Source of the DNA: Labilithrix sp.
GTDB lineage: Bacteria; Myxococcota_A; Polyangia; Polyangiales; Polyangiaceae
Direction: 5' to 3'
Assembly: GCA_019637225.1 (NCBI GenBank)
Contig: JAHBWC010000031.1
Coordinates: forward strand, 1-64,000
DNA: 64,000 nucleotides
Shown here: one piece after another, positions 50,629 through 64,000 of the stretch
Position numbering within the stretch: position 1 is the stretch's first letter
Layout: each line of letters opens with the position of its first letter
Program-made: the position numbers and the translations under genes
The notes under the pieces: model-generated
What the model was told of the DNA's origin: nothing
Seen by the model: only the letters and a program-made list of their open reading frames with translations
Databases searched by the model: none

Positions 50629-51377
50629 CAGCCCCACCTCCACGCGTCGACGGCGCGCACGGTGACGAAGAGCGGCAGGACGACGAGCGAGCCGTAGAAG
50701 ACGAGCCGGCGCGAGTCGACGACCCCCGACGCGAAGTCGTTCATGTGCGCCCACACCGAGACGTGCGAGCAGACGTCGTGCATCACGGTGCCCTCGCGCG
50801 TGACGAACTCGCCGACGCCGAGGATGAAGAGCGCGAGGATGACGGTCGCGGTCAGGACGAGCGCGAGGAACTGGCTCTTCGTGATCGCGCTCATCAACAT
50901 GCCGAGCGACAGGTAGCCCGCTCCGACGAGCAAGACGCCGAGGTACGCCGACGCGGCGACGTTCCAGTCGATGTCGCCCGTCTGCCGCAGGATGACGAGG
51001 TAGAGCACTGTCGGCGCCCACATCGCTACGTAGGTCGTCAAGACCGCCGCGTACTTCGCGAGGACGACGCCGATGCTCGAGACCGGCGCGGTCATGAGCG
51101 ACTCGATCGTCCCGCTCCGCCGCTCCTCGGCGAAGAGGCGCATCGTCATCGGCGGAATGAGCAAGAAGAGCACGAGGTAGAGCAGGACCGTGTTGCCGAA
51201 GAACGCCTGCAGCGGCGTCTGGTCGCTGATCTGCTGGCCGGCGCTCGCGAAGTGATCGACCAGGAGGAAGAAGTGCATCCCCTGGACGAGGAGGAACACC
51301 GTGATGAGGACCCAGGCGAGCGGCGTGACGAAGAAGGCGAAGAGCTCGCGCTTGTAGATGGGCCAGAAGCTCCTCAC
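50628..51377 (-). CDS. ABC-2 type permease (GldF-like)
   Basis: 249 residues with six predicted membrane segments, starting at PLAWVLITVFLLVQGMHFFL. The loop with TMRLFAEERRSGTIESLMTAPVSS is the conserved ABC-2 permease signature. It forms the channel for the ATPase encoded upstream (ATGA overlap) and is followed directly by the GldG-like gene. Confidence 0.94.
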   Translation of the reverse strand: MRSFWPIYKRELFAFFVTPLAWVLITVFLLVQGMHFFLLVDHFASAGQQISDQTPLQAFFGNTVLLYLVLFLLIPPMTMRLFAEERRSGTIESLMTAPVSSIGVVLAKYAAVLTTYVAMWAPTVLYLVILRQTGDIDWNVAASAYLGVLLVGAGYLSLGMLMSAITKSQFLALVLTATVILALFILGVGEFVTREGTVMHDVCSHVSVWAHMNDFASGVVDSRRLVFYGSLVVLPLFVTVRAVDAWRWG

Positions 51378-52375
51378 GACGCGGCCTCTTCTTCCTCGTC
51401 CTCGCGCGCGGCGTCGTCGGCGCGCGCGCCCGTGAGCTCGCCGAAGAGCTCCTCGAGGGTGCTCTTCACGGGGCTCGCCTCACGGACGAAGAGGCCACGA
51501 CCGACGAGCGCACCGACGGCCTCTTCCGTCGCCCGCGCCGCGGCGCCTTCGTCGAGCTTCTTGCTCCAGGAGCACCGCACCGCGTGCACGCCTTCGTCCG
51601 CGGTCGTCGCGGGCTCGGGCAGGGCCTTCACGATCCCCTCGACGCCGCGGAGCGCCGCGACGGCGGCGTCGAGGTCGCCCCGGACGACCACGTGAAGCCC
51701 GGCGGAGCGGCGCTTCCTCGCGATCTCGTCCATCGTCCCCTCGGCGACGAGCTTGCCGCCCGCGATGACGACGACGCGGCTGCAGCTCGCCTCGACCTCG
51801 CTGAGGATGTGCGTCGAGAGGAGGACCGTGTGCTCCTTGCCGAGCTCGCGGATGACCTCGCGGACGTCGCGGATCTGGTTCGGGTCGAGGCCCGCGGTCG
51901 GCTCGTCGAGCACGAGCAGCGGCGGACTGCCGACGAGGGCGTCCGCGAGGCCCACGCGCTGGCGGTAGCCCTTCGAGAGGTGACCGATGACGACGTTCGC
52001 GACGTCGCGCACGTTGGCCTTCCCCATCGCGTCCCAGACCGCGCGCTTGCGCTCGCCGCCGGGCACGCGCTTCAGCTCGGCGCGGAACCGGAGGTACTCG
52101 ACGACGCGCATCTCCGGGTAGTGCGGGACCGCCTCCGGCATGTAGCCGAGCTTCTGCCGCGCCTCGAAGCTCTCCTTCGTGATGTCGTGCCCCGCGACCT
52201 TCACGGTGCCGCTCGTCAGGCCGAGGAAGCCGGCGATGACGCGGAGCGTGGTGCTCTTGCCGGCGCCGTTCGGCCCGAGGAAGCCGACGACCTCGCCCTT
52301 GTCGACCTCGAACGAGAGATCGTCGACCGCGACCTTCGAGCCGTACCGCTTTACGAGGTGCTGAACGGAGATCAT
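51374..52375 (-). CDS. ABC transporter ATP-binding protein (GldA/NatA-like)
   Basis: 333 residues. Walker A is GPNGAGKST, the signature LSKGYRQRVGLA, Walker B LLVLDEPTAGLDP and the H-loop STHIL. A C-terminal 100-residue extension has a beta-alpha domain (GLHVVVRGDLDAAVAALRGVEG) found in ABC-2 exporters of the NatA/GldA type. It energises the GldF-like permease on the cytoplasmic face. It is the first gene of a four-gene operon; no promoter was recognised in the 113 bp before it. Confidence 0.95.
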   Translation of the reverse strand: MISVQHLVKRYGSKVAVDDLSFEVDKGEVVGFLGPNGAGKSTTLRVIAGFLGLTSGTVKVAGHDITKESFEARQKLGYMPEAVPHYPEMRVVEYLRFRAELKRVPGGERKRAVWDAMGKANVRDVANVVIGHLSKGYRQRVGLADALVGSPPLLVLDEPTAGLDPNQIRDVREVIRELGKEHTVLLSTHILSEVEASCSRVVVIAGGKLVAEGTMDEIARKRRSAGLHVVVRGDLDAAVAALRGVEGIVKALPEPATTADEGVHAVRCSWSKKLDEGAAARATEEAVGALVGRGLFVREASPVKSTLEELFGELTGARADDAAREDEEEEAAS

Positions 52376-52488
52376 CGTGACGGACCGACGCCGGAGCCGC
52401 CGTCGAGGGAGCGGACGACCCGGAGCGCGCAGGCCTTCCTACCACGAGGACGCCGCGCCGCGCACGTGCGAGCCGCAGGGCGACGCGA

Positions 52489-54441
52489 TCAGCCGAGCGT
52501 GAAGTAGATGCAGGCGCCCTCCGGAGACGCCTCTGCCCATGCGCGCCCGCCGTGGCGCCCGACGATCCGCCGTACGGTCGCGAGGCCGATGCCCGTCCCC
52601 TCGAAGTCGCTCTGCGCGTGGAGGCGCTGGAACGGACGAAAGAGCTTGTCCGCGCGCGCCATGTCGAAGCCCACGCCGTTGTCGCGGACGAAGAACGCGC
52701 GGACGCCGTCGACGACGACCGCGCCGACGCCGATCTTGGTGCGCTCGCGCCTCGCGCTGAACTTCCACGCGTTGCCGAGCAGGTTCTCGAGCACGGCGCG
52801 GAGGAGGCTCTTGTCGCCCTCGACCTCGAGCCCATCCTCCACCTCGATGTCCGCCGCGCGCGACGGATCCCGCCCGACGAGCTCGCGGCCGACGACACGC
52901 GCGAGCTCGCTCAGGTCCACCGGGACGCGCCGGAGCTCGGCCCGCGTCACGCGCGAGAGCGTGAGGAGGTCGTCGATGAGCTCGCGCATCCGATTGGTCG
53001 CCGCGTAGACGCGGGCGAGGTGCGCTCGCCCGACGTCCTCGAGGAGGTGCCCCTGGTCCTCCTCGAGCGCGCGCGAGAAGCCCTCGATCGCGCGGAGCGG
53101 CGCGCGCAGATCGTGCGAGACGGAGTAGCTGAACGCCTCGAGCTCGCTGTTCGCGACCGCGAGCTCGGCGTTCTTCCGCTCGAGCTCGGCGAGGAGCTCG
53201 GCCCGCGCCTCCGCCAGCGCGGCGGCGGCGCGGGCCTCCGCGAGCGTGAGCTCCCGCGCGAGACGCGCGTCGCGCTCGCGGGCCCCCTCTTCCTCCGCCT
53301 GCTTGCGCCGGAGCTGGGCGCGGATACGCGCGACGAGCAGCGGCGCCGGCGTCGCGCGGGACACGACCTCGTCGACGCCCGCGGCGAGGCAGTCGATCGC
53401 CAGCCGCGACTCGCCGTCGGGCGTCAGCGCGAGCAGCGCGCTCGGCCTCGAGAGCGCCGCGCGGATCGCCTTGCATCCGGCCGCCTCGGACGTGACCTCG
53501 ACGAGGACGCACGCGGGCGTCTCGACGCCCGCCAGGAGCACCGCGTCGTCGGCGCTCGGCGCGAACGCGACGTCGAAGGCCTCGCTCTGGAGGGCGGTGG
53601 CGAGATGCTGGATCCCCGCTCCGACGACGAGCAGCTTGTTGGCCGCGAGGGCGCTCCGCACCGAGGCGATCGGCGCCGGCGTCGACGCCAGGAGCGACGC
53701 GACGCGCGCGACGACCTCCGCCGGCGGCGTCCGCTTGTCGAGGTAGGCGTCGACGCCCGCTTCGAATGCGCCCATCTCGCTGCCGGGCATGTCGGAGGCG
53801 GTGATCATGATGCACGGCGTGTGGCGAAGCGCGGCGTCGAGTCGGAGGCGCCGGATGACGGTGACGCCGTCGATGCCGGGAAGCTGACCGTCGACGATCA
53901 CGAGCGCAGGCCGCATCACCGCCGCCTTCTGGAGCCCTTCTTCGCCCGACTCGGCGGTGATCGCGCGGTAACCCGCCGCCTCGAGCGCCTCGCGAATCGC
54001 CTCGCGGAACGAGACGCTGTCGTCGATGACGAGGATCGTCGGGCTGTCCGCCGGCGCGCTCGAGCGGGTCTCCTCCGCGAGCTCGCGCGCGCGCGCGACG
54101 ACGTACGAGAGCACGTACGGCTTGCCCGCGTATTCGTCGGCGCCGGTCGAGAGCCCGCGGACGCGGTCGCGGACCTCCGCCTCGGACGAGAGCATCATCA
54201 CCGGGGTGCGCCCGAGGTGCGCCTCCGCTGCGCGGAGCTCGCACAGGAGGTCGACACCGTCGCCGTCGCCGAGCCGAACGTCGAGGATGACGACGTCGAA
54301 GCGCCCCGCCTCGAGCGCCGCGCGCGCCTCGGCGAGCGAGCCGCTGCCGACGACGTCGAAGCCTGCGCCCGAGAGCCCCTCGACGAGGTCCATGCGGACC
54401 GTGAGGCTGTCGTCGACCACGAGGGCGCGCCAGCGCGTCAT
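52489..54441 (-). CDS. Three-receiver hybrid histidine kinase, output of the chemosensory operon
   Basis: 650 residues, no membrane segment. Receiver 1 (5-122) has DD and D54 with K108. Receiver 2 (136-250) has D184, T215 and K236. Receiver 3 (268-372) is degenerate: GAG replaces the acidic pair, Glu stands where the phosphoacceptor should be (VLVEVTS) and Arg replaces Lys. A coiled coil of about 60 residues (375-435) leads to a phytochrome-type HisKA with H443 in SYSVSHDLRAPL. The ATPase domain has NLLGNAWKFS, RDNGVGFDM and GTGIGLATV. It occupies the WspR position but has no GGDEF domain, so it should signal by phosphorelay, perhaps to an unlinked regulator. Confidence 0.92.
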   Translation of the reverse strand: MTRWRALVVDDSLTVRMDLVEGLSGAGFDVVGSGSLAEARAALEAGRFDVVILDVRLGDGDGVDLLCELRAAEAHLGRTPVMMLSSEAEVRDRVRGLSTGADEYAGKPYVLSYVVARARELAEETRSSAPADSPTILVIDDSVSFREAIREALEAAGYRAITAESGEEGLQKAAVMRPALVIVDGQLPGIDGVTVIRRLRLDAALRHTPCIMITASDMPGSEMGAFEAGVDAYLDKRTPPAEVVARVASLLASTPAPIASVRSALAANKLLVVGAGIQHLATALQSEAFDVAFAPSADDAVLLAGVETPACVLVEVTSEAAGCKAIRAALSRPSALLALTPDGESRLAIDCLAAGVDEVVSRATPAPLLVARIRAQLRRKQAEEEGARERDARLARELTLAEARAAAALAEARAELLAELERKNAELAVANSELEAFSYSVSHDLRAPLRAIEGFSRALEEDQGHLLEDVGRAHLARVYAATNRMRELIDDLLTLSRVTRAELRRVPVDLSELARVVGRELVGRDPSRAADIEVEDGLEVEGDKSLLRAVLENLLGNAWKFSARRERTKIGVGAVVVDGVRAFFVRDNGVGFDMARADKLFRPFQRLHAQSDFEGTGIGLATVRRIVGRHGGRAWAEASPEGACIYFTLG

Positions 54442-55496
54442 CGCTTGCCTCCCTGGACGGCACGACGGAGCGCCGGAGCGATCGCGTCGAGCGCGAGGAC
54501 GGATCCGGCCGCCTCGAGCTCGACCGCGGCGCGCGGCATGCCGTAGATGACGGAGCTGGCCTCGTCCTGCGCGATCGTGATGCCGCCCGCGCGCCGGATC
54601 GCGAGGAGCCCTTCGGCCCCGTCGCGCCCCATGCCCGTCAGGAGCACCCCCGCGACGCCGGCGCCGACGTCCGCCGCCAGCGACTCGAACAGCACGTCGA
54701 TCGACGGGCGGCACGAGTGCCGCTCGGGCCCCGTGTCGAGGCGGAGCCTCCCCTGGCTGACCCTCAGGTGCTTGCCGGCGGGCGCCATGAAGACGCGCGG
54801 CGGTCCGTCGAAGACGTCCTCGCCGTCGACGGCGAAGGCGACCCGATGCGGGCTCTGGGCGTCGAGCCAGTCGGCGAGCGTCGCGTCGAACGGCTCGCCG
54901 ATGTGGAGGACGAGCAGCACGGGGACTCCGAACCCGGCCGGCAGGCCCGTCAGGACGCGCCGGACCGCTCCCGGCCCTCCGGTCGACGCGCCGATCGCGA
55001 CGAGGCGAACCGTCGAGTCGCGGGGCGCCTCCGCGGGCGCGACGCCCGGCGCGCTCGGAGGCTTGAGGCGCCCGCGCGGGTGGGTCACGACCTTGATGCG
55101 CGCGGCGATCCGAAGGACGAACTTGAGGCGATCGGCCCACGCGGAGTCCGGTGTCGCGCTCGGCTTCGGCACGACGTCGACGGCGCCCGCCGCGATCGCG
55201 TCGTAGGTGCGGAAGACCTCGCCGCGGTTCATCGACGCCGACACGATGACGATCGGCGTCGGGCAATAGGCCATGATCCACTCCGTGGCCGCGAGCCCGC
55301 TCATCACGGGGAGCATCATGTCCATCGTGACCACGTCGGGGCGGTGTCGCTCGCAGAGCTCGATCGCCTGACGACCGTTCGCGGCCTGCGCGACCACCTC
55401 GAACGCCGGGTCGGCCTCGAGCAGCTCGACGATGTGCATGCGCACCGTGATGGAATCGTCGACGACGAGCACCCTGATCGTCCCGGTCGCGGTCAT
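54438..55496 (-). CDS. cheB: CheB chemoreceptor methylesterase
   Basis: 352 residues: a receiver domain (D59 phosphoacceptor, K111) and a methylesterase domain with the catalytic triad S171 (GASTGGP), H198 (LLVLHIG) and D292 (GMGRDGAEG). It removes methyl groups from the operon's chemoreceptor and is stimulated by phosphorylation from CheA. It is the WspF equivalent by position. ATGA overlaps join it to both neighbours. Confidence 0.96.
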   Translation of the reverse strand: MTATGTIRVLVVDDSITVRMHIVELLEADPAFEVVAQAANGRQAIELCERHRPDVVTMDMMLPVMSGLAATEWIMAYCPTPIVIVSASMNRGEVFRTYDAIAAGAVDVVPKPSATPDSAWADRLKFVLRIAARIKVVTHPRGRLKPPSAPGVAPAEAPRDSTVRLVAIGASTGGPGAVRRVLTGLPAGFGVPVLLVLHIGEPFDATLADWLDAQSPHRVAFAVDGEDVFDGPPRVFMAPAGKHLRVSQGRLRLDTGPERHSCRPSIDVLFESLAADVGAGVAGVLLTGMGRDGAEGLLAIRRAGGITIAQDEASSVIYGMPRAAVELEAAGSVLALDAIAPALRRAVQGGKR

Positions 55497-57607
55497 CCAA
55501 CCAACCTCCGTACGGCGTCGAGGAACTCGCCCTCTGCGAACTCCCCCTTCACGATGTAGGCCCGCGCGCCCGCCTCGAGACCGCGGCGTCGGTCCTCGGG
55601 CGCGGCGCGCGACGTCACGAGGACGGCGGGCGTCGCGGAGAGGACCGGGTCGGACCGCGTCAGCGCGACGAACTCGAAGCCGCTCATGCCCGGCATCTCG
55701 ACGTCCACGACGAAGAGCGCGAACGTCCGTCCGCGCGCGATCTCGAGCGCCTCCTCGGCGGACGCGGCGGTGGTCACGTCGTAGCCGGCGGCCTCGAGGA
55801 TGGTCCGCTCGAGCATCCTCGACGTGAGCGAATCGTCGACCACGAGGACGCTCTTCACGACCGGAGCCGCGTCGGCCCTCGGGCCTCCGGGCAGCCGGCA
55901 AACGGCCGCCACGAGGGCGCGCGGCTCGAGCGCGAGCCGCGGATCGCCCTGTCCGTCGAGCGACGCCCCGACGACGATCGCGTCGGCGACGAGGGGTGCG
56001 GGCAGCGGGAGGACGACCTCGTTCGCGACGCCGAGGATGCGGTCCACGCCGACGGCGGCGCGCGCTCCGCCGATCTCGAGCAGCACCGCGGTCCATGCCT
56101 CACGACGGACGCTCGCGTCGTCCGGGAGCCGGAGGACGCGCGCGAGGGACGCGAAGCTCACGGCGCTTCCCGCCTCCGAGATGGCGTCGCCCTCGGGCGA
56201 GCGCGCGACGTCGTCCGCGGCGATGCGCGCGGTGCGCACCACCGCGTCGAGCGGGATCGTCGCCGCGACGTCGCCGGCCTCGACGACGAGCGCGGAGGCC
56301 GCGGTCATCGACACCGGGACGTCGAGCTCGAACTCGGTCCCCTGCCCCGGCTCCGTGCGGACGGCGAGCGCGCCGCGCAAGCGCTCGACGACCGTACCCA
56401 CGACCTGGAGCCCCACGCCGCGGCCTGCGAGGGCCGTCGCCGACGCGCGCGTCGTCACCCCGCGGAGCATCCCCAGCCGAACGAGCGCGCCGACGTCCAT
56501 CCCGCGAGCCGCGTGCTCTTCGGCGAGGCCGCCCGCGACGACCGCCGCGCGGAGGGCGGCGAGGTCGATCCCGCGCCCGTCGTCGCGGCACGTCACCACC
56601 GCCCGAGCGCCGCGGAGCTCGAAGCGGATCGCGATCCGTCCGGCGACGGGCTTGCCCGCGCGCCGGCGCTCCGCCTCGGGCTCGAGCGCGTGAGCGATCG
56701 CGTTCCGGACGAGCTGGAGCAAGGCGTCGCGGAGGAGCCCCAAGACGCGCGCGTCGAGGCGGATGGATCCGCCGGCGGTCTCGACCTCGACCGGGCGGGG
56801 CGGCACCCCGGGCGCCCCAGCGTCCGCCGCAGCGGCGTCGCGGGCGGCGCGCGCGAGCTCGGCGAAGAGCGTCTCGGCCGGGAGGAGACGGAGGCGGCGC
56901 GCGTCCTCGAGCGCTTCGCGTGCGCGACGCTCGGCGGCCTCGAGCGCGCCGGCGAGGTCCTCGCGCTCCACGTGGAGCTCGGCGCGCAGGCGCTCGACGG
57001 TGCCGACGATCGCGTCCCAGTCGAGCGACGACGGATCGGGCGCGCGCCTCGCCGCTCCGAGCCACGCCTCGACGTCGCGGACCGCGAGCTCGGCGCGGGC
57101 GAGACCGCCGCCGCTCGCGCTCGCGACGCGCGAGCTGGTGAGGCGCGCGACGACGTCGGCGATCGACGCGAGCACGCCGTCGACCTCCAAGAGGTCGAGG
57201 CGGACGGACTCGACGGTCTTCTCGATGGTGGACGGCTCTCGCGGCTCTCCGGACGCCTCGGGCCGCAGAGGAGGCGCCGCGTCCGCCGTGCCGAGCGTCG
57301 ACAGCGCCGCCGCGACGGCATCCACGATCCCGAGGAGCGCGCCGATCGGCTCGCGGCTCGCGGCGTCCTCGGCGCGCGCGTACGGCGCGAGGAGCTCCTC
57401 GAGGCGATGCGCGAGCTTCGCGATCCCCTCCTGGCCGACCACCCCCGCCGCGCCCTTCAACGTATGCGAGGCGCGGAGAAGCCGGTCGACCTCCTGCCGC
57501 GCGTCGCGGCTCGCCGGCCGTGACTCGAGCTCCAGGATCCCCTGCGAGAGCGCTTCGACGATCTCGCGCGCCTCGATGCGGAAGTAGCGGTAGGGGTCCT
57601 TCGCCAT
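55493..57607 (-). CDS. cheA: CheA histidine kinase with C-terminal receiver (WspE-like)
   Basis: 704 residues. The N-terminal Hpt domain carries H48 in ASHTLKGAAG. A helical P3-like region follows (about 130-240) without an obvious P2 domain. The ATPase domain has NAIAHALE, DDGRGIDLAAL and GRGVGLQVV. A CheW-like domain (about 455-580) contains SVSFASLARVL. The receiver has D635 and Lys in IVKGEF. CheA autophosphorylates and passes phosphate to its own receiver, to CheB and probably to the adjacent hybrid kinase. ATG 57607 was chosen; GTG 57616, overlapping the cheW stop, is equally possible. Confidence 0.96.
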   Translation of the reverse strand: MAKDPYRYFRIEAREIVEALSQGILELESRPASRDARQEVDRLLRASHTLKGAAGVVGQEGIAKLAHRLEELLAPYARAEDAASREPIGALLGIVDAVAAALSTLGTADAAPPLRPEASGEPREPSTIEKTVESVRLDLLEVDGVLASIADVVARLTSSRVASASGGGLARAELAVRDVEAWLGAARRAPDPSSLDWDAIVGTVERLRAELHVEREDLAGALEAAERRAREALEDARRLRLLPAETLFAELARAARDAAAADAGAPGVPPRPVEVETAGGSIRLDARVLGLLRDALLQLVRNAIAHALEPEAERRRAGKPVAGRIAIRFELRGARAVVTCRDDGRGIDLAALRAAVVAGGLAEEHAARGMDVGALVRLGMLRGVTTRASATALAGRGVGLQVVGTVVERLRGALAVRTEPGQGTEFELDVPVSMTAASALVVEAGDVAATIPLDAVVRTARIAADDVARSPEGDAISEAGSAVSFASLARVLRLPDDASVRREAWTAVLLEIGGARAAVGVDRILGVANEVVLPLPAPLVADAIVVGASLDGQGDPRLALEPRALVAAVCRLPGGPRADAAPVVKSVLVVDDSLTSRMLERTILEAAGYDVTTAASAEEALEIARGRTFALFVVDVEMPGMSGFEFVALTRSDPVLSATPAVLVTSRAAPEDRRRGLEAGARAYIVKGEFAEGEFLDAVRRLVG

Positions 57608-57612
57608 CGCGC

Positions 57613-58134
57613 TCACTCCCCGCCCGCGACCGCGGCGATGCGGGCGAGCATCGACCCGAGGTCGAGCACCCCGCGCGCCGAGGGCTCGCCGGCGAGGTGG
57701 GCGAGGCCCGAGACGTGGCGGCGCGCGCTCGAGGGCGCCGCCGCGACGCTCGACGGCGGCACCACCACCTGCCCGTCGAGGCCCTCGAACGCGAGCGCGA
57801 CAGGCCGCGCGCCACCGGCGACCGCGAGCCAGGAGATGCGCGCGAGCGCGACGTCGTAGCCGAGGAGCGCAGGCAGCGAGAAGACGCCGACCAGCGCTCC
57901 GCGGATCCCGGACACCCCGAGCTGAGCGGAGGAGCCGCCCGGCAGCGGGACGATGGCCTTCTTCCTCGAGACGCTCGAGAGCCCCTCGAGAAAGAGGAGG
58001 TAGGGATCGCCGCCGACACGAACGGCGAGCCCCGGCCGCCCATCGTCCTCGCGTACGCGAGCGGGCGAAGCGAACGATCGATCGAACGTCTCGGCGAGCT
58101 CGCGCACGCGCCTCGCCACCTCCGACTCGCTCAC
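57613..58134 (-). CDS. cheW: CheW adaptor (WspD-like)
   Basis: 173 residues; GTG 58134 overlaps the cheR stop (GTGA). The CheW beta-barrel shows LAVRVGGDPYLLFLEGLSSV, VSGIRGALVGVFSLPALLGY and the short C-terminal segment SGLAHLAG, ending DLGSMLARI. It links receptor and CheA. It has an extra 25-residue helical N-terminus. It is the second of two CheW proteins in the operon, as in Wsp. Confidence 0.92.
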   Translation of the reverse strand: MSESEVARRVRELAETFDRSFASPARVREDDGRPGLAVRVGGDPYLLFLEGLSSVSRKKAIVPLPGGSSAQLGVSGIRGALVGVFSLPALLGYDVALARISWLAVAGGARPVALAFEGLDGQVVVPPSSVAAAPSSARRHVSGLAHLAGEPSARGVLDLGSMLARIAAVAGGE

Positions 58135-59576
58135 CGCGCACCTCCGAGCGTCGCGAGCTCCGTGCGACAGAGGGCGACGAGGCCGGCGCGGCCGAACCCG
58201 CCGCCGAAGAGGACCAGGCGCGACGGCTCCTCGCGCGCGAGGAGGTCGAGCGCTTGCCCGAGCTCGTGACGGGCTTCGTCGATCCGCCCCTCTCGCCGCT
58301 GGATCCGGCCCAGGTGAAGATGCGAGAGCGCGAAGTCCGGCTCGAGGTAGATCGCGGCGCGGTGATGCTCGATCGCCTTCGCGCGATCGCCGCGGTGCTC
58401 GGCGACGAGCGCCAGCACCAGGTGTGCCTCGGCCGAGCCCTCGTCGGCCGCGAGGAGGTGCGCGGAGGCGGACTCGGCCGCGTCGACGTCGCCTGCACCG
58501 AGGTGGGCGACGGCCCGAAGCACGGCGGCGCCCACCTCTGCCCCCGCGAACGAAGGCATGCGGGTGAGCGCGTCGAGCGCCTCGTCGAAGCGCTCGCGGG
58601 ACACGAGCTCGCGCACCGCGTCGAGATGGACCTGGCTCGCCGAGGAGACCGCCGGCGGGTCGACGCGAGCCGGCGAGGCGGCGCGAGGCGGCGCGAGCGG
58701 CTCGGCGGCGCGCTCCGCCGTCCTGGGCGCGGAAGCGGGCGCCGTGACCGGACGGCTCTCGGGGCGGCGGTAGTAGAACGCGCCGTGCGAGCTCTCGAGG
58801 GAGTACGCGTTCGAGAGCCCGCGAAGCGACTCGGCGTGCCCCAGGAAGAGGACGCCCCCAGGAGCGAGCGCCGCGGTGAGCCTCGCGACCACCGCGCGCG
58901 CGGCGTCGGGCGTGAAGTACATGAGGACGTTGCGGCAGAAGATGGCGTCGAACGCCTCCGGAGCGGAGAGCGCCGACGAGGCGTCGAGCAGGTTCCGCTG
59001 CTCGAAGGTGACGCGCGCCCGGACGTCCGCGCGGAGCTCGTGCTCGCGGCCGCGCGTCGTGAAATAGCGCTCGCGGAGCTCGGCCGAAGTCTCGCGGAGC
59101 GACCACGCGGAGTAGACGCCCGCCGCGGCCTTCGCGAGCGAGCGGCCGCTGAGGTCGACGCCGCGCACGTGCCAGCGCAGCCACGTCGCCGGCTCGCAGC
59201 GGCGTTCCCACTCGCACATGAAGATCGCGAGCGAGTACGCCTCCTCCCCCGAGGAGCACCCGGCGGAGAGGAGCCGGAGGTCTTCCCCGCGCGATCGGGG
59301 CCTCGCCGGCAGCACGACCTCACGGAGCACGTCGAACTGCGCGGACGATCGGAAGAAGCAGGTCTCGCCGACGGTCAAGAGCTGACCGATCGCGCGGAGC
59401 TCCTCGTCGCTCGTCTCGAGCGCGTCGAGGTACGCGCTCGCGTCGCGCCGACCGCGCTCGCCGAGGCGCCGCGCGAGGATCTCGCCGAGCTCGACGTCTC
59501 GACTCTCGTCGAGCGACAGACCCAGCCGGCGGGAGATGACGGCGCGGAGCCGGAGGAGATGCTCAGCGCGCACCAT
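58131..59576 (-). CDS. cheR: CheR methyltransferase with C-terminal TPR domain (WspC-like)
   Basis: 481 residues. A helical N-domain is followed by the methyltransferase core: ETCFFRSSAQFDVLREVVLP, SAGCSSGEEAYSLAI (SAM site, about 105-117) and FDAIFCRNVLMYF. A Pro/Ala linker (about 280-315) leads to three or so TPR units (EALDALTRMPSF, AHLVLALVAEHRGDRAKAIEHH, AHLHLGRIQRREGRIDEARHELGQAL, roughly). The CheR-TPR arrangement is that of WspC. It methylates receptor glutamates. Its start overlaps the upstream cheW by 14 nt. Confidence 0.95.
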   Translation of the reverse strand: MVRAEHLLRLRAVISRRLGLSLDESRDVELGEILARRLGERGRRDASAYLDALETSDEELRAIGQLLTVGETCFFRSSAQFDVLREVVLPARPRSRGEDLRLLSAGCSSGEEAYSLAIFMCEWERRCEPATWLRWHVRGVDLSGRSLAKAAAGVYSAWSLRETSAELRERYFTTRGREHELRADVRARVTFEQRNLLDASSALSAPEAFDAIFCRNVLMYFTPDAARAVVARLTAALAPGGVLFLGHAESLRGLSNAYSLESSHGAFYYRRPESRPVTAPASAPRTAERAAEPLAPPRAASPARVDPPAVSSASQVHLDAVRELVSRERFDEALDALTRMPSFAGAEVGAAVLRAVAHLGAGDVDAAESASAHLLAADEGSAEAHLVLALVAEHRGDRAKAIEHHRAAIYLEPDFALSHLHLGRIQRREGRIDEARHELGQALDLLAREEPSRLVLFGGGFGRAGLVALCRTELATLGGAR

Positions 59577-60045
59577 GCGCCCCCGCGTCGGCGGACGCTC
59601 GCTCGCCGAGCGCCGTCCAGACGTCGTCGGGGACGAGCCGCGCTCCCCGGAGGACGACGAGCAGCTCGCCGTCGAGGACCTCGAGCGCGCTCACCGCGCC
59701 GTGCGCCGCCTCGGCCAGGAGCGGCGGCGCCGTGCCCTCCGCGAGCACGCCCGGCAGCCGTCGCACGCCGATGACGTCATCGACGGCGAGACCGACGACG
59801 CGCCCACCCACCTCGACCGTGATCCATCGCGACGTTCGCCTGTCTCCCGGCGTCCCGAGGAGCGCTCCGACGTCCACGATCGGCGTGGCCCGGCCGCGGA
59901 CGACCGCCGCGCCGACGACGAAAGGGTGCGTCCCCGCGACGGGCTCGCACGGCAGCGGCCGCATCGTCTCGAGGACGTGCGGTGTCGGCAGGGCGGCCAG
60001 CATGCCGGGCCGCGGCCGAAAGACGAGCGCGAGGTCGCGCGTCAT
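59563..60045 (-). CDS. cheW: CheW adaptor (WspB-like)
   Basis: 160 residues. The CheW pattern is RPRPGMLAALPTPHVLETM, VVRGRATPIVDVGALLG, RWITVEVGGRVVGLAVDDVIGVRRL, and the end LEVLDGELLVVLRGARLV. It overlaps the MCP stop (ATGA) and cheR by 14 nt. It couples the MCP to CheA. Confidence 0.92.
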   Translation of the reverse strand: MTRDLALVFRPRPGMLAALPTPHVLETMRPLPCEPVAGTHPFVVGAAVVRGRATPIVDVGALLGTPGDRRTSRWITVEVGGRVVGLAVDDVIGVRRLPGVLAEGTAPPLLAEAAHGAVSALEVLDGELLVVLRGARLVPDDVWTALGERASADAGAHGAR

Positions 60046-61505
60046 GTCGCGGAGGCGTCCACCACGCGGAGCAGATCCCGCGAGAGCGTGGTGAGCTCGC
60101 TCGCCGCCTGGAGCGTCTGCTTCGCGCTCGCGTCGGACTCCCGCGTCGCCTGCGCGACGCTGCCGATCGCCGAGCTCACCTGCTCTACGGCGGTCGCCTG
60201 CTGCTTCGTGCTGAGCTCGATCTCGCGCGCCGCCTCCGTGGTCGTGCCGACCAGCGCGGCGATGCGCTCGAACGAGGCCGTCACGTCCGCGAAGCGCGCG
60301 GCGCCTGCATCGACCGCCTTCACGCCGCTCTCGGTGGCCATCACGGTCGTGTTCACGGCGGCGCGCATGTCGTCGACGATGCCGCGGATCTCCTTGGTCG
60401 ATCCGCCGACGCGATCGGCGAGCTTGCGGATCTCGTCGGCGACCACGGAGAACCTTCGCCCGCTCTCGCCGGCGCCCGCCGCCTCGATCGTCGCGTTGAT
60501 GGCGAGGATGTTGGTCTGCTCCGCGAGCTCGTTCACCAGATCGAGGATCCCGCCGGCCTGCTGGGACTTCTTGCCGAGCTCGAGCATGTGGCCCACGACG
60601 ACGTCCATCTGGCGCTTGATCGCCGCGATCGTCTCGTGGGTGTCTTTCACGATGCCGGAGCCGGTCCTCGCGCCCGTCACCGTCTCCTCGGCGACGCGGC
60701 TCACCCGCTGCGCGCTGTCGGTGATCTGCCGCGACGTCGCGAGCAGCTCGCGGACCGTCGTGGCCACCTCGGTGGTCGCCGAGAGCTGCTCGCGTGAGCC
60801 CGACGCCTGCTGGGTCGCGGCGGCCTGGAGCTCGGCCGAGGAGCTCCGGATGCTCGTGACGGCAGCGCCGAGCTGCGAGCCGAGCGACCGCGTGATCAGG
60901 GCGCCTGCGACGATGACGATGAAGAGCGACACGAGCGCGCCCGCGCCGACGCCGACCTTCGCGCTCTGGGCGCCTGCCTCCGCCGCCGCCGAGCGCCGCT
61001 CGAGGAGCTGACGCTCCTCTTGCTCCATCTCCGAGGCGATCCGGCGGATGTCATCCATGTATTGCTTGCCGAGGCCCGTCTGAATGCTGTTCGTCGCGAT
61101 CTCGAGGCCCCCCGACCGCCGCTGTTCGATCACGAGCCGGAGCCGCTCGAGCTTGCCCTGGAGGGCGGCCTCGAAGTCGTCGATCCGCGCCAGCTGGCGC
61201 GGGTTGTCGGCGGTCTGGCGGCGGAGCTCCGCGATGTCCGCCCTCAGTCCGCGGGTGGCGAGCTCGTAGGGCTCGAGGAAGGCCGGATCGCCCGTGATGA
61301 CGAAGCCACGCTGACCGGTCTCCGCGTCCTTGACGAGCGACAGCGTCGTGGCGATTTTCTCGAGAACCGCGTGGGTGTGGCTGACGCGCTTGTTGTTCTC
61401 GATGAGCGCGTCGATGCTCCGGTAGGCGATCGTCCCGACGAGCAGGAGCATGACGACCGACAGCCCGAACCCTACTCCCAGCTTCCTACCGAACGTCCAC
61501 GACAT
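60042..61505 (-). CDS. Methyl-accepting chemotaxis protein with CHASE3 sensor (WspA-like)
   Basis: 487 residues. Membrane segments at about 9-29 and 184-205 flank a helical periplasmic domain with DAETGQRGF (60-68), the CHASE3 signature. No HAMP domain is evident after the second segment; a long coiled coil runs directly into the signalling tip QTNILAINATIEAAGAGESG, then GRRFSVVADEIRKLAD. It is the receptor of the operon, sensing an envelope or surface state by analogy with WspA (inference). There is no strong ribosome site before ATG 61505. Confidence 0.96.
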   Translation of the reverse strand: MSWTFGRKLGVGFGLSVVMLLLVGTIAYRSIDALIENNKRVSHTHAVLEKIATTLSLVKDAETGQRGFVITGDPAFLEPYELATRGLRADIAELRRQTADNPRQLARIDDFEAALQGKLERLRLVIEQRRSGGLEIATNSIQTGLGKQYMDDIRRIASEMEQEERQLLERRSAAAEAGAQSAKVGVGAGALVSLFIVIVAGALITRSLGSQLGAAVTSIRSSSAELQAAATQQASGSREQLSATTEVATTVRELLATSRQITDSAQRVSRVAEETVTGARTGSGIVKDTHETIAAIKRQMDVVVGHMLELGKKSQQAGGILDLVNELAEQTNILAINATIEAAGAGESGRRFSVVADEIRKLADRVGGSTKEIRGIVDDMRAAVNTTVMATESGVKAVDAGAARFADVTASFERIAALVGTTTEAAREIELSTKQQATAVEQVSSAIGSVAQATRESDASAKQTLQAASELTTLSRDLLRVVDASAT

Positions 61506-61628
61506 CGCTTGACCCCATCTGGCGCAACGCTGACCCGAAAAACAGGCACTGGACCGGGATAGTCGCCTTTTTCGCCGGATTCGTCGAGATCTGTCGCCTA
61601 CTTTTCACGGCGTGGGGGACGAGGCACA

Positions 61629-62696
61629 GTGACGAGCGGCCCTCGCGGCTCCTTCGCCCCCGTCGGCTCCTTCGCCCTTCCGGCCGTGCGCGCTCTCCGC
61701 TTCCTCTTCTTCCGCGGCTCCTTCCCGGTCCTCGCCGGCGTGCTCCTCGGCGCGTGTCCCTCGTCCACGCCGCCACCTCCGCCCGCGGCGAGCGCGGGCC
61801 TCCCGAACGGCGCCGCCTCCGCCGGCGCCGCGCCGGACGCTGCGACGACGAGCCCCACCCCGGACGCCGGCTCGGCCGTCGAGGACGCGGGCGCCGGGCG
61901 CGCGGACGCCACGGCGGCCGCCGGCGACGGCGCGGCGGCCCCCGCGGGCATGCTCCTCGTCACGGGCGGCACGTTCAAGATGGGCGCGGACTCCGGCGGA
62001 GAGGGCGACGAGCGTCCGGCGCACGACGTCACCGTCGCCTCGTTCTGGCTCGACAAGACCGAGGTGACGCAGGCGGCGTACGAGGAGTGCGTCGCGGCGA
62101 AGGTCTGCACCGCCGCCGATCCCGAGATCCTCGCGACGTTCGGCGGCCTCTTCCGCGGCCCCGCGAAGCCCGTCGTCGGCGTCTCCTGGTTTTCGAGCCG
62201 GGACTACTGCGCGTGGAAGGGCAAGCGCCTGCCGCGCGAGGCCGAGTTCGAGCGCGCCGTCCGCGGCGACGACGGGCGCCGGTACCCGTGGGGCAACGAT
62301 CCGCCGACGCACGAGCGCACGGTCTTCTCGACGAATTCACCCGACGACGTCGGGATGCACCCGACCGGTCAGGGACCGTACGGTCACGACGACCTCGCCG
62401 GCAACGTCTGGGAGTGGATCGAAGACGACTACGATCCCTTCGCGTACACGCGGTCCACGGCCGGCGAGGGCAAGCCCGGGACGTGCGACGAGATCGTCGC
62501 CGCGCAGAACAAGCTCCGCGCCGAGGGCAAGCAAGGCTTCACGGGCACGAACCCGATCCCGACCGAGTGCGAGAAGGCGATCCGCGGCGGCGCCTACAAC
62601 TACCCGGGCCCCGGCCTCCGGAGCACGAACCGGGTCCACCACCCCGCGCGCTTCAAGCTCCGGATGACCGGCTTCCGCTGCGCGAAGGACGCCTGA
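61629..62696 (+). CDS. SUMF1/formylglycine-generating enzyme-like lipoprotein
   Basis: 355 residues from GTG 61629. A signal peptide ends in VLLGAC (lipidated Cys43), followed by a Pro/Ala/Asp linker to about 105. The SUMF1 domain then runs to the end: LVTGGTFKMGADSGG, FWLDKTEVTQAAYEECV, PVVGVSWFSSRDYCAWKGKRLPREAEFE (whole region), DLAGNVWEWIED and IRGGAYNYPGP, ending MTGFRCAKD. It lacks neighbours that would be sulfatases. In Polyangia such proteins are common and may be sensory or protein-modifying; the role here is unknown. The gene is divergent from the MCP. Confidence 0.9.
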   Translation: MTSGPRGSFAPVGSFALPAVRALRFLFFRGSFPVLAGVLLGACPSSTPPPPPAASAGLPNGAASAGAAPDAATTSPTPDAGSAVEDAGAGRADATAAAGDGAAAPAGMLLVTGGTFKMGADSGGEGDERPAHDVTVASFWLDKTEVTQAAYEECVAAKVCTAADPEILATFGGLFRGPAKPVVGVSWFSSRDYCAWKGKRLPREAEFERAVRGDDGRRYPWGNDPPTHERTVFSTNSPDDVGMHPTGQGPYGHDDLAGNVWEWIEDDYDPFAYTRSTAGEGKPGTCDEIVAAQNKLRAEGKQGFTGTNPIPTECEKAIRGGAYNYPGPGLRSTNRVHHPARFKLRMTGFRCAKDA

Positions 62697-63245: not shown

Positions 63246-64000
63246 TCAGGGCTTGCCGGGTTCGACCAGATCGAAGCGGTAGCCGACGCCGCGCACCGTC
63301 TGGATGAAGACGGGCTCCTGCGGATCGACCTCGAGCTTCGCGCGGAGCTGCTGGATGAAGTTGTCCACCGTGCGCGGCGTGCCGTGGTGCTTCGGGCCCC
63401 ACACCCGACGGAAGATGTCGTCGCGCGAGAGCGCTCGACCGCGCTCGCCGACGAGGCACATGAGGACGTCGAACTCCGTGGCCGTCACCTCGACGACCGC
63501 TCCGGCGCGCCGGATGGTCCGCGCCGCGACGTCTATCTCGACGTCGCCGAAGCCGATGCGCGCGCGCGGCGGCGGCCCGCCTTGACCCGCGGACGCCGCC
63601 GCGCCGCGCCGGAGCGCCCCGCGCACGCGCGCGAGGAGCTCCGCGAGGCTGAACGGCTTCGCGACGTAGTCCTCGGCGCCGAGCTCGAGACCGGCGACCT
63701 TGTCCATCTCCGCGGACTTGGCGGAGAGGATGATGATCGGCATCGTGCGGCCCTCGGCGCGCAGGTCGTGGAGCACCTCGAGGCCGTTGCGCTTCGGGAG
63801 CATGACGTCGAGCACGATGAGGTCCGGCTCGATCGTCCGCGCGAGCTCGAGGCCGCGCTCGCCGTCCTCGGCGAGGTGGACCTCGTAGCCCTCGCTCTCG
63901 AGGTTGATGCGCAGCCCGATCGCGATGCTCGGATCGTCCTCGACCACGAGCACGCGGCGGCCCTGGAGGCTGATCGTCCGGGGTTTTTGCGAGCTCGGCG
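63246..64000 (-). CDS. OmpR/PhoB-family response regulator, probably cut by the window edge
   Basis: The receiver domain has the acidic pair EDD, the phosphoacceptor in LIVLDVMLPKRNG, SAKS and the Lys in VAKPFSLAEL. The C-terminal winged helix has TATEFDVLMCLVGERGRALSRDD and TVDNFIQQLRAKLE, ending VRGVGYRF. It binds DNA when phosphorylated by an unseen kinase. The first available start inside the window is GTG 63953 (235 residues). The frame stays open to 64000 and reads SLQGRR before VLVVEDD, which looks coding, so the true start is probably beyond the edge. Confidence 0.92.
   Translation of the reverse strand, partial: PSSQKPRTISLQGRRVLVVEDDPSIAIGLRINLESEGYEVHLAEDGERGLELARTIEPDLIVLDVMLPKRNGLEVLHDLRAEGRTMPIIILSAKSAEMDKVAGLELGAEDYVAKPFSLAELLARVRGALRRGAAASAGQGGPPPRARIGFGDVEIDVAARTIRRAGAVVEVTATEFDVLMCLVGERGRALSRDDIFRRVWGPKHHGTPRTVDNFIQQLRAKLEVDPQEPVFIQTVRGVGYRFDLVEPGKP

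Follow-up and report, generated by a model that had tools for sequence, protein, structure and literature searches.

Both the wiring of a CheA to a second kinase and the presence of a receiver-bearing kinase in place of a cyclase are already published, for CheS3 and WspH. In Rhodospirillum centenum, CheA3 phosphorylates the first receiver domain (REC1) of CheS3, lowering CheS3 output; only CheS3~P labels CheY3, and the CheS3 kinase passes no phosphate to its own REC1 (PMC3868531). In Burkholderia cenocepacia, a Wsp operon without WspR goes with WspH (WspHRR), a REC-bearing hybrid kinase without a GGDEF domain, and the regulator RowR has been implicated elsewhere (PMC8552884). In LvrB of Leptospira, a coiled coil forms when the receiver is phosphorylated, and the kinase becomes active (PMC13269768). 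Among chemosensory clusters with cheR-TPR, the alternative cellular function (ACF) class, about 40% of the response regulators carry HisKA-HATPase (PMC3447774). Here we analyze a chemosensory operon of seven genes on the minus strand (52489-61505) of a 64,000-nucleotide stretch from Labilithrix sp. (positions 1 to 64,000 of contig JAHBWC010000031.1, hereafter the window), which ends in a gene for a kinase with three receivers.

What the operon likely adds to these systems is a separate CheA lineage in which one receiver array is joined to different outputs, the output end has been swapped several times, and a type of partner can be suggested. No description of the three-receiver lineage was found in the titles and abstract openings of the open-licence literature surveyed, and the accessible part of PMC3447774 lists domain combinations and does not describe this lineage, a degenerate third receiver, or module swaps. 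We regard it as an even call that this is a distinct lineage in which the tandem receiver array forms a common socket for CheA, with different outputs joined behind it by evolution, and that in the four-member group that includes the window (the window group) the third receiver lost its phosphosite and became an adaptor, with phosphorylation of REC1 and REC2 gating a kinase that acts on an unlinked regulator.

The three-receiver kinase

The order of the seven genes is that of a methyl-accepting chemotaxis protein (MCP), CheW, CheR-TPR, CheW, CheA-REC, CheB, and the kinase. All seven are present as the earlier note on this DNA had listed them, and the same order is seen in the Pseudomonas REC-GGDEF loci sampled, in keeping with the note's comparison to wspABCDEFR. 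The cheR-TPR gene is clustered with a multidomain response regulator, which is how the ACF pathway is defined (PMC3447774). The seventh gene and its parts are as follows.

52489..54441, minus strand: kinase, REC1-REC2-REC3-HisKA-HATPase, 650 aa (Pfam; AlphaFold2)
54067..54441, minus strand: REC1, proposed CheA docking receiver, phospho-Asp D54 (codon 54280-54282), key residues D, D, D, S, K intact
53698..54042, minus strand: REC2, residues 134-248, phospho-Asp D184 (codon 53890-53892), key residues D, D, D, T, K intact
53302..53658, minus strand: REC3, degenerate pseudo-receiver whose five key positions read G, A, E, T, R
52492..53139, minus strand: DHp and ATPase region, His443 codon 53113-53115, motif EAFSYSVSHDLRAPLR, Pfam HisKA 435-498 and HATPase 542-649

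The two intact receivers, the single degenerate one, the HisKA/ATPase pair with H443, and the lack of a GGDEF domain by Pfam all agree with what had been read from the letters alone. REC3 is without the acidic pair, the phospho-Asp, and the Lys, and is weak in Pfam (E 0.0039, below the curated cut-off). No PAS domain matched at E 0.001, and the core is HisKA plus HATPase_c rather than an HWE-class core with PAS; Pfam and Foldseek alike group it with ordinary HisKA kinases.

An AlphaFold2 model of the kinase, made from a 10-row alignment, reached a mean predicted local distance difference test score of 80.3 and a predicted template modeling score of 0.46; because the latter is low, the relative placement of the domains is unreliable. 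Within the model, residues 269-361 (REC3) alternate strands and helices as a receiver does, and one unbroken helix (366-466) runs from REC3 into the DHp/kinase core, so that a continuous receiver-to-DHp signaling helix of the LvrB type is found in the predicted model only. When the model was used as a Foldseek query, PleD ranked first and LvrB second, and bacteriophytochrome kinases, 31-32% identical, followed at ranks 14, 18, and 21. PleD has a live first receiver and a second receiver that serves as an adaptor; unlike the window kinase, it ends in GGDEF. LvrB presumably lies outside any chemosensory operon. It resembles the window kinase in having an N-terminal receiver joined to the kinase core by a signaling helix, but it has one receiver (Rec-DHp-CA) and the window kinase three (PMC13269768).

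Among chemosensory systems a close likeness is to Che3 of R. centenum, likewise an ACF cluster with mcp, two cheW genes, cheR, cheB, a CheA that bears a REC domain, and a second kinase whose receivers are N-terminal. There, CheS3 acts by phosphorylating a single-domain regulator, the role we propose by analogy for the window kinase. The two kinases differ in that CheS3 is REC-REC-PAS-HWE with only REC1 phosphorylatable, whereas the window kinase, REC-REC-REC-HisKA, keeps two receivers intact and has no PAS match. WspH, in turn, belongs to the Wsp lineage and is encoded as its own upstream unit, whereas the three-receiver kinase of the window is last in its operon and belongs to another CheA lineage. 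In a plasmid search with the kinase, none of the 5,000 matches listed covers 80% of it.

CheA lineage and the Wsp question

Relatives of the window CheA matched at E<=1e-60 in 18 of 78 genomes (own included), and the named loci are the best 80 of 537 confirmed stretches; genes in the sampled loci were called with small purpose-built hidden Markov models, not Pfam. The CheA trees have 56 and 63 rows and, like all trees here, are of a quick kind. The majority of Pseudomonas rows and of multi-Hpt CheA rows lie outside them, entry required a CheA core plus REC longer than 250 aa, and R. centenum CheA3 was not among the loci sampled. The 56-row tree places the window in an 18-row clade (support 100). 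Eight rows of REC-GGDEF operons form a separate clade (support 100); their records carry the titles Pseudomonas, Ralstonia, Bosea, Methylococcaceae, and Methylumidiphilus. With nine more loci from a phylum sample the window clade grew to 27 of 63 rows, again with support 100 and apart from Pseudomonas-type Wsp. Within that sample of 377 genomes, 11 matched the CheA profile at 571 bits or more and the next at 461; G006, a clade member, matches the profile only as a fragment (431 bits). Records titled Myxococcales, Sorangium, Bryobacterales, Planctomycetota, and Xanthobacteraceae carry the lineage.

The earlier note had taken the operon for a Wsp module whose cyclase was replaced, and the tree comparison does not support this. 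Forcing the four window-group rows together with the eight Wsp-type rows was rejected (p 2e-12), and with it Wsp descent of the window group. Forcing the whole 18-row clade with the Wsp-type rows was not rejected (p 0.30), so on these sequences the window clade and the Wsp lineage may be sisters. The row lists for both tests were drawn up after the quick 56-row tree, and the hypothesis itself came earlier.

MCP-first order is present in 6 of the 14 clade loci that have at least two cheW genes (L099, with its receptor gene on the opposite strand, is counted as not MCP-first), and because this requires two changes within the clade, the Wsp-like order is best read as convergent. The window operon thus has the MCP-W-R-W-A-B-output order of Wsp, with a CheA that groups elsewhere and a terminal gene that is not REC-GGDEF. 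Since the same order occurs in another CheA lineage, Wsp gene order alone identifies neither Wsp nor a surface-sensing cyclic-di-GMP pathway, and gene order is the only feature that would suggest a surface-sensing role here.

One receiver array, several outputs

The seventh gene encodes a REC-REC-REC kinase in 7 of the 18 genomes (G000, G003, G004, G006, G009, G012, and G045). Among the named loci, the best 80 of 537, five also have it, titled Bryobacterales (L096), Deltaproteobacteria (L097 and L099), Myxococcales (L100), and Xanthobacteraceae (L152); the L096 and L099 kinases carry further receivers. Listing the domains of the seventh gene wherever the gene order recurs had been suggested earlier; over the clade, MCP-first order recurs and the output varies. 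The three-receiver output is also present in relatives with other gene orders.

The receiver tree was built from 141 rows and 114 columns, and its deep forks are weak for that reason. It unites REC1 in 17 rows (support 99) and REC2 in 13 rows (support 99) and groups most intact REC3 copies, while the four REC3 copies of the window group form a long branch by themselves. In 17 output genes, with the nine phylum-sample loci outside the counts, we scored the five key residues: two acidic ones, the phospho-Asp, Thr/Ser, and Lys. They are intact in REC1 of 16 of the 17, in REC2 of 12 of 13 (lost in L099), and in REC3 of 10 of 16 (the window, L042, L043, L050, L099, and L045 have lost them). The REC1 clade spans output genes with differing C-terminal modules, and since REC1 stays constant over these modules and nearly always keeps its key residues, this constant part is the part to which CheA would dock.

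The modules behind the array are a window-type kinase in 10 rows; other kinases, some with C-terminal receivers, in 7; two-receiver proteins with a further C-terminal domain in 7; and one REC-GGDEF (L269). Output type changed at least five times over these 25 typed rows. L270, L271, and L273 were typed on their C-terminal receivers, and two rows of the 27-row clade were left out of the count: L046 (no output gene recognized) and L098 (contig end). In all three two-receiver proteins that could be placed (L113, L047, and L048), the second receiver groups with REC3. One CheA lineage with one array, varied outputs, and receivers lost in some members amounts to a natural series in which comparison of members can test what REC1, REC2, and REC3 each do.

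Several members of the clade deserve separate mention. The two-receiver outputs (L045, L047, L048, L113, and L266-L268) carry a further C-terminal domain about 75 residues long, for which no Pfam match was found up to E 0.1 in L045, L047, and L048. The REC-GGDEF output at L269:6459-7430 is split into two open reading frames in one frame, and the in-frame stop is either an assembly error or decay. L096 (Bryobacterales) and L100 (Myxococcales) have very similar CheA proteins and receiver arrays with different kinase ends, a contrast that may reflect recent transfer, a module swap, or mis-binning. At L272:12562-14601, a REC-Hpt-REC-REC-GGDEF gene lies directly 3' of a three-receiver kinase and is a possible cyclic-di-GMP output in that genome.

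A candidate partner regulator

R. centenum Che3 has CheY3, whereas no single-domain cheY lies beside the window operon. In L049, L100, and L152 a single-domain regulator follows the three-receiver kinase, of what we take to be the Rcp1 type. Using the L049 regulator as query (E<=1e-25) against seven operon-bearing genomes, we obtained 14 matches in six relatives and 2 in the own genome, 16 in all. Eleven of these, one being the L049 query itself, follow, at a distance of 27 nt or less, a kinase that carries F(S/A)YSV-x-HDLR-x-PLR, a motif also present in the window kinase. Three others lack a kinase gene immediately upstream on their strand and form one ortholog group of 85-86% identity: C102:59936-60364 in the own genome, one on contig C18 of G003, and one on contig C43 of G004. 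Their surroundings contain similar sets of receiver genes, and the neighbor is REC-EAL by Pfam in both C102 and G003. No copy above 58% identity to the C102 regulator was found in the other genomes of a 46-genome sample (own included). By these comparisons the orphan at C102:59936-60364 is a candidate unlinked partner, a lead and not proof, and a specific regulator can thereby be named. Within L093:10417-16507 (own C102), the orphan stands beside REC-EAL, HTH-REC, and sigma54-activator genes, with similar arrangements in G003 and G004.

Proposed signaling route and its alternatives

Taken as a whole, we think it rather probable that an ACF-type CheA signals through the receiver array to the kinase and then to an unlinked single-domain regulator. 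In such a non-motility chemosensory pathway, the CHASE3 receptor, tuned by CheR-TPR and CheB, would set the activity of CheA, which would pass phosphate to its own receiver and to CheB. The key step would be transfer from CheA to the kinase whose gene adjoins cheB, at REC1 and perhaps also at REC2. Once phosphorylated, the array would act on the kinase core through the degenerate REC3, as a rigid adaptor, and the long helix, changing autophosphorylation at H443. From H443~P, phosphate would go to a separate Rcp1-type single-domain regulator, for which C102:59936-60364 is the best candidate. We infer the phosphotransfer steps and the partner from the comparisons above, as well as the sign of control, which could be a lowering as in CheS3 or a raising as in LvrB. 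What the operon governs is probably a further kinase, not a motor or second-messenger enzyme. The suggestion that CheA feeds a second kinase is plausible, given the precedent of CheA3 and REC1 of CheS3 in R. centenum. The branched phosphorelay that the earlier note drew from it may be possible, although the kinase of CheS3 passes no phosphate to its own REC1.

Several observations weigh against this route. REC1 has lost its key residues in L047. Two of the 16 regulators lie behind kinases without the motif, and linkage was counted from regulators to kinases, with the converse, motif kinases without such a neighbor, outside the count. The L097 regulator is found upstream of its operon and follows another kinase gene. 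G006 has the operon, and its best matches to the C102 regulator reach at most 53% identity and lie behind kinases of their own. The C102 ortholog is found in three close relatives only, so its co-occurrence with the operon may be shared descent. A promoter and terminator scan, which is little informative at 72% GC, gave no promoter-like sites and two terminator-like sites against 1.2 expected.

A true phosphorelay, in which CheA~P loads REC1 and REC2 and H443 exchanges phosphate with REC2 so that the kinase is a relay or sink within a branched phosphorelay such as the earlier note proposed, seems unlikely but keeps an appreciable chance. The intact key residues of REC2 in nearly every output gene that has it suggest a second live receiver, and CheA3 of R. 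centenum uses its own receiver as a sink (PMC3868531); against it, Pfam finds no Hpt domain in the seventh gene that could hand phosphate on. It is more doubtful still that the true output of CheA is a GGDEF protein encoded elsewhere, with the kinase as a side branch, a possibility that had been named as fatal to the kinase-output idea. The genome does have 15 matches to GGDEF, of which two share one frame, at least one is in a receiver-bearing protein (C122, L095), and the clade member L269 has REC-GGDEF, in two open reading frames of one frame, in the seventh position. None of the 15, however, is on the contig of the window, and the receiver comparison singles out none of them, as the best other receiver in the genome scores 56 bits against 254 for REC1 itself.

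Action of the kinase on the OmpR-type regulator upstream of the operon (63246-63953) is very improbable. The regulator is kept beside the operon in all four window-group genomes, but it is also present at a congener site that lacks the operon (L290), and in L043, L050, L290, and L291 its ortholog is adjoined by a HisKA kinase gene. The own ortholog of that kinase, 84% identical, is not adjacent to the regulator and lies about 4 kb upstream of it on the same strand (L062:6247-12200, C108). Membership in the Wsp family, as an H-type operon that lost its cyclase like that of Burkholderia, is barely credible. The gene order matches, WspH is a published GGDEF-less hybrid kinase (PMC8552884), and the union of all 18 clade members with Wsp was not rejected. 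Against it stand the rejection of a tree that joins the window group to Wsp and parts it from its remaining relatives, the two changes to MCP-first order within the clade, the three-receiver outputs under other gene orders, and the position of wspH upstream of its operon.

Other operon genes and history of the site

The remaining genes of the operon are as follows.

60042..61505, minus strand: MCP receptor, Pfam CHASE3 38-173 and MCPsignal 287-453
59563..60045, minus strand: CheW in the WspB position (Pfam CheW), 4-nt overlap with the MCP gene
58131..59576, minus strand: CheR with C-terminal TPR (Pfam CheR, TPR repeats weak)
57613..58134, minus strand: second CheW in the WspD position (Pfam CheW), GTG start
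55493..57616, minus strand: CheA with Hpt, HATPase, CheW, and REC (Pfam and reading frame)
54438..55496, minus strand: CheB, REC plus methylesterase (Pfam)

Pfam agrees that the receptor has a CHASE3 sensor and, with no match up to E 1, no evident HAMP domain. The overlaps reported after the MCP gene are present, including one of 4 nt between the kinase gene and cheB, but the possible 6-nt gap proposed before cheA need not exist: an in-frame GTG at 57616 is a possible start, giving a 4-nt overlap with the cheW stop, and with it all junctions after the MCP gene can be overlaps.

In the four window-group genomes the operon has an FGE-sulfatase gene and the OmpR-type regulator at one flank and an ABC transporter at the opposite flank. 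Eight congeners were examined. In G005, G007, and G010 (L290, L292, and L289) the FGE-sulfatase and ABC ATPase genes are direct neighbors without the operon, compared with 52375-61629 in the window. By this sequence comparison the operon was gained or lost as one block. Five congeners were uninformative: about 1.4 kb separates the two genes in G009, the FGE gene is several kb off in G001 and G002, and no FGE match was found in the stretches compared from G008 and G011, the latter ending at a contig end. Insertion seems likelier than loss because the related operon of G009 (L051) is on another contig and has another gene order, although polarity is not proven. The downstream ABC transporter (ATPase 51374-52375 and the next genes) was considered as a part of the system and rejected, as it adjoins FGE without the operon in the same three congeners. 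Elsewhere in the own genome, with no CheA or MCP match within 19 kb, CheR and CheB genes lie next to two large hybrid kinases (L063:5894-15684, C94).

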